From Clostridia bacterium (GTDB taxonomy: Bacteria; Bacillota_E; RBS10-35; JAJYVN01), in contig DAHWHV010000640.1 of the NCBI GenBank assembly GCA_027335545.1, positions 1-5,008 of the forward strand: a stretch of 5,008 nucleotides of DNA. The letters are read 5' to 3'. Below, piece by piece: positions 844-5,008 of the stretch (positions within the stretch are counted from its first letter, which is position 1; each line of letters starts with the position of its first letter). The translations under genes and the position numbers were made by a program. The notes beneath the pieces are model-generated. The model was not told the origin of the DNA, did no database searches, and saw only the letters and a list, made by a program, of their open reading frames with translations.

Positions 844-932
844 TGGACCGTTTTGCACCGTCTTGCACCGTTTTGCACCGTCTTGCACCGTTTTGGACCG
901 TTTTGCACCGTCTTGGACCGTTTTGGACCGTT
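844..932 (+). repeat. Phased 10-bp tandem repeat array in the flgM leader
   Basis: Eight contiguous 10-bp units occupy 851-930, preceded by a partial unit (TGGACCG, 844-850) and followed by TT. The consensus is TYTTGSACCG. In order the units are TTTTGCACCG, TCTTGCACCG, TTTTGCACCG, TCTTGCACCG, TTTTGGACCG, TTTTGCACCG, TCTTGGACCG, TTTTGGACCG. Variation is confined to position 2 (T/C) and position 6 (C/G), and the first four units form a 20-bp repeat occurring twice. ACCG is invariant. T-tracts recur every 10 bp, about one turn of DNA, in a region otherwise nearly free of AT. The array lies between the sigma-D promoter and the flgM ribosome binding site. Function unknown: a DNA bend, a cooperative protein-binding array, or an RNA element in the leader are all possible. 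Confidence 0.95.
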
Positions 933-1900: not shown

Positions 1901-1907
1901 GATGCGG

Positions 1908-3332
1908 GTGGGCGGCAGCCTGTTCACGGGCCTGAACATCGCCCTGAGCGGCTTGGAGGCGCAGCAGAGCGTCCTCTCCGTGACGGCCCACAACGTGGCG
2001 AACGCCTCCACGCCGGGCTTCTCGCGCCAGGAGGCGGACCTGGCCCCCAATCCGCCGTATGCCCCCCCCGCCCTCGGGCAGGGGGGCGGCGCCCTCCAGT
2101 ACGGCATGGGGGTCCGCGTGGCGCAGATCCAGCGCGTCAGCAGCCACTTCCTGAACCTGCAGCTCTGGAGCAGCGACGCCCAGTTGGGCGCCGCCTCACA
2201 GCAGACCACCACCCTCGGCCAGGTGCAGGCGATGCTCAATGAGCCCTCCTCGACGGGAATCAACAGCGCGCTGAGCGCGTTCTGGAACTCGTGGCAGGCG
2301 CTCGGCAACGACGCGTCCAGCACGGCGGCGCGTAGCCAGGTGCTGGATGCGGGGCAGGCGCTGGCGAGCCGGCTCAACACCCTCTCCGGGGAGTGGACGG
2401 GCCTGACCCAGAGTCTGAACACCTCGGTCGGGCAGGCGGTCGCGACGATCAACGGGCTGACCGGGCAGATCGCCGCCCTCAACGGACAGATCGCGGCGAG
2501 CACGGCCGCGGGGCAGAGCCCGAACGATCTGGAGGACGGTCGCAGCCGCCTGATCACCCAGCTCGCGAGCCTGGTGCCGGTGTCCGTCTCCTGGCAGGCC
2601 AACGGCCAGGCCGACGTGTCGCTCGCCGGGGTCCAGGCGGTGGCCGGCACCAGCACCCTCACCCTGCACGCCACGCCCAACCCCGCAAACCAGAACTTCC
2701 TGGCCCTGAGTTGGGGTCCGGCGGGCATCCCCGCCCCGATCAGCGGTGGCTCGCTGGGCGCGACGCTCGCCCTGCGCGACCAGACGGTGCCCGGGTACCT
2801 GGCGCAGCTCAACGCCCTGGCCTCTGGCGTGGCCACGGCCGTGAACACCCAGCACGCCCAGGGCTACGACGCCACCGGCGCCTCGACGGCGGCGGTACCG
2901 TTTTTCACGTCCAGCGGCGGCGGGACGATCACCGCCGCCAATCTGGCCGTCAATCCCAGCCTCGTCGCCAACCCCGGCGGGATCGGCGCGGCCTCCAGCG
3001 CCACCTCCGGCCCGGGCGACGGCAGCAACGCCGTGGCCATCGCCAATCTCCAGAACTCCGCCTTTCTCTCGGGCGGCAGCGCGACCCCGGGGGGCGCCTA
3101 CGCGACCCTGGTCGGCCAGGTGGGCAGCGACACCTCCGCGGCGCAGGGCGCCCAGGCCAACCAGCAGACCCTGCAACAGAGCATCCAGAACCAGCAGCAG
3201 CAGGTCTCCGGCGTATCGATCAACGGCGAGATGACGACCATGGTCGAGGCTCAGAACGCCTACGCGGCGGCCGCGCGCGTGGTGACGACGATCGACGGCA
3301 TGTTGGGGACCCTGATCGGGATGGTCCAGTAG
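1908..3332 (+). CDS. flgK: FlgK, hook-filament junction protein 1 (HAP1)
   Basis: 474 residues from GTG 1908 (476 from ATG 1902). FlgK is exported through the flagellar secretion system and forms the first junction layer between hook and filament. The N-terminal D0 helix is clear: GLNIALSGLEAQQSVLSVT (8-26) followed by the axial-protein signature HNVANASTPGFSRQ (28-41). The C-terminal D0 helix is equally clear: SGVSINGEMTTMVEAQNAYA onward to the end (about 434-474), matching the family ending of an E-M, Q-x-A-Y-x-A-x-A-R-V-x-T-T-x-D-x-M-L pattern. A long Gln-rich helical stretch (about 400-433) precedes it. The middle is Gly/Ala/Ser/Thr-rich beta structure, somewhat shorter than in many FlgK proteins (500-550 residues). 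It follows flgN after 37 bases and precedes flgL, its partner in the junction. Confidence 0.95.
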   Translation: MGGSLFTGLNIALSGLEAQQSVLSVTAHNVANASTPGFSRQEADLAPNPPYAPPALGQGGGALQYGMGVRVAQIQRVSSHFLNLQLWSSDAQLGAASQQTTTLGQVQAMLNEPSSTGINSALSAFWNSWQALGNDASSTAARSQVLDAGQALASRLNTLSGEWTGLTQSLNTSVGQAVATINGLTGQIAALNGQIAASTAAGQSPNDLEDGRSRLITQLASLVPVSVSWQANGQADVSLAGVQAVAGTSTLTLHATPNPANQNFLALSWGPAGIPAPISGGSLGATLALRDQTVPGYLAQLNALASGVATAVNTQHAQGYDATGASTAAVPFFTSSGGGTITAANLAVNPSLVANPGGIGAASSATSGPGDGSNAVAIANLQNSAFLSGGSATPGGAYATLVGQVGSDTSAAQGAQANQQTLQQSIQNQQQQVSGVSINGEMTTMVEAQNAYAAAARVVTTIDGMLGTLIGMVQ

Positions 3333-3448: not shown

Positions 3449-4336
3449 GTGCAGGCCGTGCGTGTCACGCAGCAGATGCTGGGGTCCGTGCTCACCTCGG
3501 ACCTCCAATCGGTGCAGTCCCAGATGTTGCAGGTCCAGCAGCAGTTGGCGAGCGGCAAGCGCATCCTGGTCCCGAGCAACGACCCCGTCGGCACGCAGAA
3601 CGTGCTGCAGTGGCAGGGCGCCATGGCGCAGAACAAGCAGTTCCAAGCCAACGCCAGCAATGCCGTGGACTGGCTGCAGAGCACCGACACGGCGCTGCAG
3701 AGTGCCGTGTCGGTGGCGCAGCAGGTGCGGACGCTGGCCGTCAGCACGGGCTCGGCTGCCCTGACCTCCTCCGAGGACCAGACCATCGCCTCCCAGATCT
3801 CCTCGCTGCAATCCAGCCTGGTGCAGATCGGCAACACCAAGGTCGGCGATCACTACCTGTTCAACGGCGACCAGACGGCGACGCCCCCCTTCACCCAGAG
3901 CGGCAACAGCGTGGCCTTCGCGGGTGGCACCGGCGCCCAGATGCGCGAGGTCGCCCCCGGCTCCAGCATCCAGGCCAACACGGGCGGCGGCGTGTTCACG
4001 CCGCTCTTCGGGGCGATCACCCAGATCCTGCAGGACCTGAAGTCCCCGAGCACCGTCGGCAACGTGACCTCCGGGGACCTCGCGGCCCTGGACGCCGCGA
4101 TCGGCAACCTCAGCAACGCCAACGGCCAGGTGGGGGCGAGCCTGCAGCAGGCCCAACAGGCCCAGGGCATGCTCACCGATCTCAACCAGTCCCTGCAGAC
4201 GCTGGAGGCGGGTACCCTGGACACGAACATGGCCCAGGCCGTCGTCCAGCTCCAGGAATTGCAGGTCGGCTACCAGAGCGCGCTGGCCGTCGGGGGGCGC
4301 CTCCTGCAGCCGACCCTGGCCCACTACCTCCAGTAG
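3449..4336 (+). CDS. flgL: FlgL, hook-filament junction protein 3 (HAP3)
   Basis: 295 residues, the usual family length (about 300). FlgL is exported and forms the second junction layer, to which flagellin attaches. The N-terminus has the family RVTQQML pattern (5-11) and the flagellin-like D0/D1 signature LASGKRILVPSNDPVG (33-48), followed by a long Gln/Ala-rich helix and DQTIASQISSLQSSLVQIGN plus GDHYLFNGDQT, the typical flagellin-family core. The C-terminal helix ends with LDTNMAQAVVQLQELQVGYQ then SALAVGGRLLQPTLAHYL. Three in-frame GTG codons compete for the start: 3443, 3449 and 3458. I chose 3449 for its ribosome-binding-site spacing; 3458 would give MRVTQQML, the most common FlgL beginning, so it is a close alternative. 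No promoter is visible in the 116-base gap after flgK, so it is probably co-transcribed. Confidence 0.94.
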   Translation: MQAVRVTQQMLGSVLTSDLQSVQSQMLQVQQQLASGKRILVPSNDPVGTQNVLQWQGAMAQNKQFQANASNAVDWLQSTDTALQSAVSVAQQVRTLAVSTGSAALTSSEDQTIASQISSLQSSLVQIGNTKVGDHYLFNGDQTATPPFTQSGNSVAFAGGTGAQMREVAPGSSIQANTGGGVFTPLFGAITQILQDLKSPSTVGNVTSGDLAALDAAIGNLSNANGQVGASLQQAQQAQGMLTDLNQSLQTLEAGTLDTNMAQAVVQLQELQVGYQSALAVGGRLLQPTLAHYLQ

Positions 4337-4614: not shown

Positions 4615-5008
4615 ATGGGCGCGGTGCCTGCGTGGACGCCGGCGTCTGTCGCCGCGGGGTGTGAGGGCGAGGACGAGTTGGACGCCTTCCCCCTGCCGGC
4701 GGAGGCCCGCGGCGAGGAGCTGCGGGAGGTCGCGGCGGCCGCCGGGGACGGCGGGGACACCCAGGGGACGGCACTGGCCGTGCTGGAGGCCGAGCCGCTG
4801 GCGCCCGCGGGTGCAGAGGCGGATGTGCCGGGGGCGGCCCGCCTGGAGCCCCTGGGCGCCGAAGCGGACGATGCGCGCGACGACCCGGAGGGCGCCATGC
4901 ACCGGTTTCATGAGGAGATCGGCCTGGTTCCGGCGACGAGCGTGGTGGAGCCCGTGGTCGTCGCACCGGAGGCGGCCGGGGCCGGCGGGGGCGAGGGGGG
5001 CGGCCGCG
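4615..5008 (+). CDS. N-terminal part of an unidentified, highly acidic protein
   Basis: 131 codons are visible and the frame is still open at the window end. The composition is Ala/Gly/Glu/Asp/Pro-rich with about 27 acidic against 6 Arg/Lys residues, and no hydrophobic segment or signal peptide is visible. Acid-rich runs include CEGEDELDAF near 16-25 and LGAEADDARDDPEG, then MHRFHEEIGL begins a more ordinary stretch. Third codon positions are very GC-rich, as in the flagellar genes, and the start has a good Shine-Dalgarno sequence. I do not recognise the family. In Bacillus this position holds yviE, then fliW and csrA; nothing seen here matches FliW or CsrA. It may be an acidic linker in front of a folded domain outside the window. 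Low complexity in GC-rich DNA leaves some risk that it is not a gene. Confidence 0.55.
   Translation, partial: MGAVPAWTPASVAAGCEGEDELDAFPLPAEARGEELREVAAAAGDGGDTQGTALAVLEAEPLAPAGAEADVPGAARLEPLGAEADDARDDPEGAMHRFHEEIGLVPATSVVEPVVVAPEAAGAGGGEGGGR

Follow-up and report, generated by a model that had tools for sequence, protein, structure and literature searches.

Tandem decamers in the leader of a clostridial flgM operon: a probable lineage-specific expansion

What is a run of near-identical decamers doing between a flagellar promoter and the ribosome-binding site of an anti-sigma factor gene? The question is raised by a stretch of 5,008 nucleotides from a Clostridia bacterium (hereafter the window), where eight contiguous and perfect units of the form T[TC]TTG[CG]ACCG (TYTTGSACCG) occupy positions 851-930, shortly before flgM. 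Exact pattern matching places the unit starts at 851, 861, 871, 881, 891, 901, 911 and 921, and Tandem Repeats Finder reports the same plus-strand array, with its partial flanks, at 847-932 (period 10, 8.6 copies, score 130) as well as at a period of 30 (score 144), so that the eight-unit 10-bp array described in the first-pass annotation is confirmed by both approaches. The highest lagged self-match per 70 bases in the whole window (lags 6-30) reaches 64 of 70 at position 842 with a lag of 20, whereas none of 100 dinucleotide shuffles of the window exceeds 43, and the head-to-tail repetition is far beyond chance. The G+C content of the array is 53%; the window as a whole has 75% and the stretch 748-846 has 81%.

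As originally pointed out in that annotation, variation is confined to unit positions 2 (T or C) and 6 (C or G) across all eight units, which read at these two positions, in order, TC, CC, TC, CC, TG, TC, CG and TG. Such a pattern does not decide for either selection or recency, because it could also result from two mutations that later duplications passed on. The description of a T-tract at every helical turn turned out to be overstated: TTTT is present in five of the eight units (1, 3, 5, 6 and 8, at 851, 871, 891, 901 and 921) and TCTT in the other three, which makes a T-rich ladder with gaps. The array does end beside the Shine-Dalgarno sequence, although the gap given as 5 bases takes values of 2-6 nt depending on the limits chosen for the array and for the Shine-Dalgarno. 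Three of the units contain GGA, and CsrA was considered on that account.

The genes in the window follow the order yvyF-like, flgM, flgN, flgK and flgL, all on the plus strand. The yvyF-like flagellar-region gene (250-741) matches NCBIfam TIGR03826 with an E value of 1.7e-11 and 44.3 bits, below the cut-off of 124.15, and stretches 43-61% identical to it precede flgM in five relatives (L001, L002, L003, L004 and L010). The frame itself has 163 codons, compared with 125-159 in five relatives, and the flgM promoter match lies across its 3' end. The gene for the anti-sigma-28 factor, flgM (952-1260), starts with GTG at 952 and is recognized by Pfam PF04316 (30.6 bits, cut-off 25), its match to NCBIfam TIGR03824 (28.4 bits) being below the cut-off of 40.75; its product is 93% identical to protein P0121. 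It is followed by flgN (1262-1870; Pfam PF05130, 39.3 bits, cut-off 30.5), flgK (1902-3332; TIGR02492, 356.9 bits, cut-off 170.75) and flgL (3452-4336, with a putative start codon; TIGR02550, 205.3 bits, cut-off 127.2). A further frame runs after flgL at 4615-5008, with no Pfam match for the part within the window; by eye, it has an acidic stretch, EGEDELxxFPLPxEAR ... HEExGLV, in common with the post-flgL frame of L003 (~10400-10900).

Following the consensus of sigma-28 (SigD/FliA) promoters, an exact match of this type, TAAA-N16-GCCGATAA, was found on the plus strand at 714-741, unique in the window when both strands were scanned, and a sigma-70 promoter scan of 600-1300 gave none. From the end of this match to the flgM start there are 210 nt, which hold a second plus-strand tandem array of 17 bp x 3 (GTGGGTCCGGCCCCGGA; 750-801; Tandem Repeats Finder, 91% match, score 81), the decamers and, finally, the Shine-Dalgarno GGAAGGAGG of flgM (935-943), for which relatives show similarly spaced G-rich stretches. 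According to Tandem Repeats Finder, the two arrays (17 bp x 3 and 10 bp x 8.6) make up 138 of the 210 nt. By position, then, the decamers sit between the promoter match and the GTG at 952, and the stretch that carries them is very probably a true transcribed leader, as judged from the sequence; what had been a presumed leader is well supported by the sigma-28-type match upstream and by the same promoter type in four of nine relatives. A longer FlgM read in frame from a GTG at 784 was also considered and rejected: P0121, the 93% identical relative, has 102 aa, and visual inspection shows no good Shine-Dalgarno ahead of this GTG. An Rfam search returned two matches, both under the gathering score.

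An assembly may get the length of a repeat array wrong, and one may ask whether the decamers were produced by the assembly or by the sequencing. We regard such an artefact as extremely improbable, in view of the promoter match, the Shine-Dalgarno and the genes intact on both sides, and of units that carry distinct variants.

How the leader compares with others was addressed with the upstream regions (300 nt or fewer before flgM) of nine relatives, L019, with a flgM match, having been left out. A promoter of the form T[AC]AA-N15/16-[GC]CCGATAA precedes flgM in four of them (L001, L002, L004 and L010), at distances of 28, 30, 31 and 38 nt, respectively, versus the 210 nt of the window, whose leader is therefore 5.5 to 7.5 times longer (172-182 nt extra). 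The comparison of promoter distances rests on these four relatives, since the other five (L003, L009, L014, L020 and L022) show no such promoter, L022 having a -10-like match only, 117 nt upstream and inside the yvyF frame. The decamer is absent from all nine regions. The first-pass annotation had named absence of the array from close relatives with the same promoter among the observations that would speak against its interpretation; it is indeed missing from the relatives that share the promoter, but these are distant, with FlgM proteins only 40-53% identical. Closer relatives are known as proteins, with 95% identity in FlgK and 93% in FlgM.

These observations are the basis of the explanation that we favour, and to which we give somewhat better than even chances: the array would be a lineage-specific expansion, born by slippage within the flgM leader, with a weak effect or none and modest tuning at most. 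A short tandem repeat (minisatellite) would have grown, through slippage during replication or through unequal recombination, within the leader of a putative sigma-28-driven flgM-flgN-flgK-flgL operon, the promoter and the Shine-Dalgarno being kept while the stretch between them went from some 30 to 210 nt and acquired two separate arrays. Any effect would be a modest change in expression, brought about by the length of the leader, the kinetics of elongation or the stability of the mRNA, and neither start-site occlusion nor a dedicated switch forms part of the proposal. We infer all three of its elements, namely a short leader as the older state, an origin by slippage and a weak function. In favour of the expansion are the perfect units with their two variant positions and the share of the leader taken up by the two arrays, the 28-38 nt leaders of the four relatives, the lack of an array in the class and phylum genomes searched, and a predicted exposure of the start site that stays almost level between 0 and 8 units. 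On the other side, eight of the ten bases of the unit are the same in all eight copies, something that selection could also explain, and the combination of the weakest-folding array with a poorly folding leader would fit a functional unstructured leader (see below).

The search for the unit in related genomes proposed in the first-pass annotation came out empty, with the array absent, even when 3 mismatches per 28 nt were allowed, from 154 genomes in the class to which the nearest relative belongs, and absent also from 398 genomes of its phylum, a set that partly overlaps the former. This absence says little about recency, however, because no relative with readable DNA has a FlgM more than 53% identical. 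In viral contigs neither the three-unit nor the two-unit pattern gave any exact match, and BLASTN of the array against phages, plasmids and Escherichia coli genomes gave no match, a weak result as BLAST masks simple repeats. When the leader was searched together with flgM against plasmids (BLASTN), only short matches at chance level appeared, and the translated array, run against the 154 class genomes with no positive control, gave no match at E 0.01. A FlgK search of genome contigs returned 36 stretches and no relative, and a 27-row FlgK alignment located 4 loci in genome contigs and none in viral contigs. A mobile origin of the segment 745-940 was rejected, with matches in six of six family genomes at E values up to 1 (best E 0.004); none of the matches listed passes query base 107, so the decamers are left uncovered.

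Among 28 array rows scoring at least 50 in the flagellar contigs of four relatives (274 kb), only one reaches 130 or more, a 30 bp x 2.6 repeat of L003 (score 140) that lies inside an open coding frame after flgL. Downstream of the flagellar genes of L001 there is a cluster of TTATCCACA-type boxes (12830-12905), which we take to be DnaA-box-like and which could mark a replication origin, and L002 has a similar repeat at 8714-8740. As a separate observation, the predicted protein P0123 (221 aa, from a 1401-base JGI contig) reads like the opposite-strand translation of a diverged array of this decamer (E 2.2e-12), so the unit may occur beyond the flgM leader. A genome-wide family of such arrays in the source genome is possible.

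Repeats of this general kind have precedents. By its sequence, the decamer array would belong to a known kind of element, the tandem repeat in a leader between promoter and start codon, and we do not class it as a phase-variable locus. The earlier view that no equivalent had been described was too strong, as published work places AGAT repeats upstream of uspA2 and GACTGTTT repeats upstream of gor in Moraxella catarrhalis (PMC7302503; uspA2 also in PMC4679880). Those arrays are also tandem units upstream of the start codon and outside the coding frame, and their copy number differs between strains and alters uspA2 mRNA levels (PMC7302503). In contrast, the flgM array has a 10-bp unit, precedes an anti-sigma gene and is known here from one sequence. 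A second likeness is found in marine Beggiatoaceae, where short direct repeats, the TAACTGA heptamers, also lie just upstream of start codons, with some 170 sets in one genome, mostly without a Shine-Dalgarno; they are predicted to form no particular structure and their function is given as unknown (PMC4679880). Unlike these heptamers, the flgM array stands at one known place and beside an intact Shine-Dalgarno. The surroundings of the array, on the other hand, resemble those of Bacillus subtilis both in gene order and in a sigma-D-type promoter before flgM, the order in that species being yvyF-flgM-yvyG-flgK-flgL. We know of no tandem array in the flgM leader of B. subtilis, and a literature search on repeats and flagella retrieved no work about the flgM leader by title.

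By analogy with uspA2, gains and losses of units by slippage might vary the expression of the flgM operon from cell to cell, the copy number acting as a tuner. Adjacent near-identical units are prone to slippage. Interspersed variant units, as found here, are nevertheless expected to lower it, and the predicted exposure of the start site barely depends on copy number. For uspA2 itself, mRNA differences of up to 3.37-fold with repeat number are reported (PMC7302503), but on the whole we find this explanation unlikely for flgM.

Could the array act as DNA? With a wedge model, the predicted bend of the 80-bp array is 78 degrees, compared with a window mean of 29 (sd 16), a value reached by 1.1% of the window 80-mers (step 5, those of the array included) and by 1.8% of 500 mononucleotide shuffles. 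The bend attributed to phased T-tracts is thus modestly supported by the model, while the phasing itself suffers from TTTT being present in just five of the eight units. An element in which phased T-tracts bend the DNA, or offer a one-sided ladder to a DNA-binding protein, would draw on this predicted curvature, larger than that of about 99% of the window 80-mers. Against it, the array begins some 110 bp downstream of the promoter match, the genomes of relatives were searched without finding such an array, and we know of no standard role for a bend more than 100 bp downstream of a promoter; taken together, a role of this sort seems quite improbable.

At the RNA level, among 493 window 80-mers taken every 10 bases none folds more weakly than the array in isolation (-14.3 kcal/mol), although a distant one comes near it (-15.3 kcal/mol, at 3151), and all 200 shuffles of the leader fold better than the leader itself (z +2.9 for 748-975 and +3.6 for 845-975). 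The first-pass annotation had depicted the transcribed array as a string of single-stranded units, a picture that the weak folding of the isolated array favours; in context, once 60-nt flanks are added, the array has a mean unpaired probability of 0.34, equal to the window mean. A clear effect on ribosome access was not borne out either, the energy predicted for opening the ribosome site being almost flat between 0 units (17.2 kcal/mol) and 8 units (15.2 kcal/mol), with 16.6 +/- 2.6 kcal/mol for 60 shuffled arrays. Start-site exposure is therefore not supported by these predictions as the role of the array.

The weak folding could alternatively point to an RNA platform, that is, an unstructured leader that would load Rho, a ribosome standby complex or an RNA-binding protein, and rho matches do occur in six of six family genomes, five of them over the cut-off and the sixth cut by a contig end. 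Nevertheless, besides the average unpaired probability in context, the cytosine-spacing rule of RhoTermPredict failed at the array, while 1886 of 4931 plus-strand windows satisfy it. This rule takes a 78-nt window with C/G >1 and cytosines every 11-13 nt (PMC6407284); in our own rendering of it, none of the windows starting at 835-870 pass. The C/G ratio is just 1.26, and although the window has no longer YC chain than that of the array, 33 of 100 shuffled windows have one at least as long. Moreover, flgM expression is reported as unchanged in B. subtilis rho mutants (PMC5540618). A Rho-loading site at the array is not supported by its sequence, and a platform of any of these sorts is, in our judgement, very improbable.

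A last level at which the decamers might act is elongation. The consensus of elemental pauses is G-10 Y-1 G+1; such pauses occur every 100-200 nt, most of them not considered regulatory, and can be precursors of longer ones (PMC12288461). The 80-nt array has 16 matches to this consensus, two per unit, at the TG and CG steps, versus a window mean of 5.7 per 80 nt (sd 2.6; highest value outside the array, 12) and a mean of 5.4 in 500 dinucleotide shuffles of 841-942 (maximum 11). The array could be a pause ladder, where the polymerase would halt again and again along the leader and its transit time ahead of flgM would depend on the number of copies. This count is above all window and shuffle values, and the unit positions that make the motif (4, 5, 9 and 10) never vary. 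The two matches per unit arise, however, because with the period at exactly 10 each G has another one ten bases upstream, so any 10-bp repeat with a YG step yields the motif automatically and the matches provide no independent evidence of selection. In addition, the motif alone is common, with 357 matches in the window or one per 14 nt, against one pause every 100-200 nt in the source just cited, and the NusG pause motif TTNTTT of the non-template strand is absent from 847-932. We consider such a ladder distinctly unlikely. A more specific version, going by the sequence, would see in the array a delay line encoded by copy number, with a period equal to the distance between G-10 and G+1 that keeps two pause sites per unit in register, the number of decamers setting the dwell of the polymerase in the leader and hence the timing of the anti-sigma factor after the onset of sigma-28, and this we hold to be quite doubtful. 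A literature search, mostly at title level, found no case of repeat number as a dial on transcription timing.

Since FlgM restrains sigma-28, motility could be tuned by a leader that altered the timing or the dose of this protein. Were the decamers to work through repeated pausing, their number would be a heritable dial on the timing of transcription. If they do nothing, the locus would be a clean case of a leader several times longer than those of relatives, with its promoter and its ribosome site kept.
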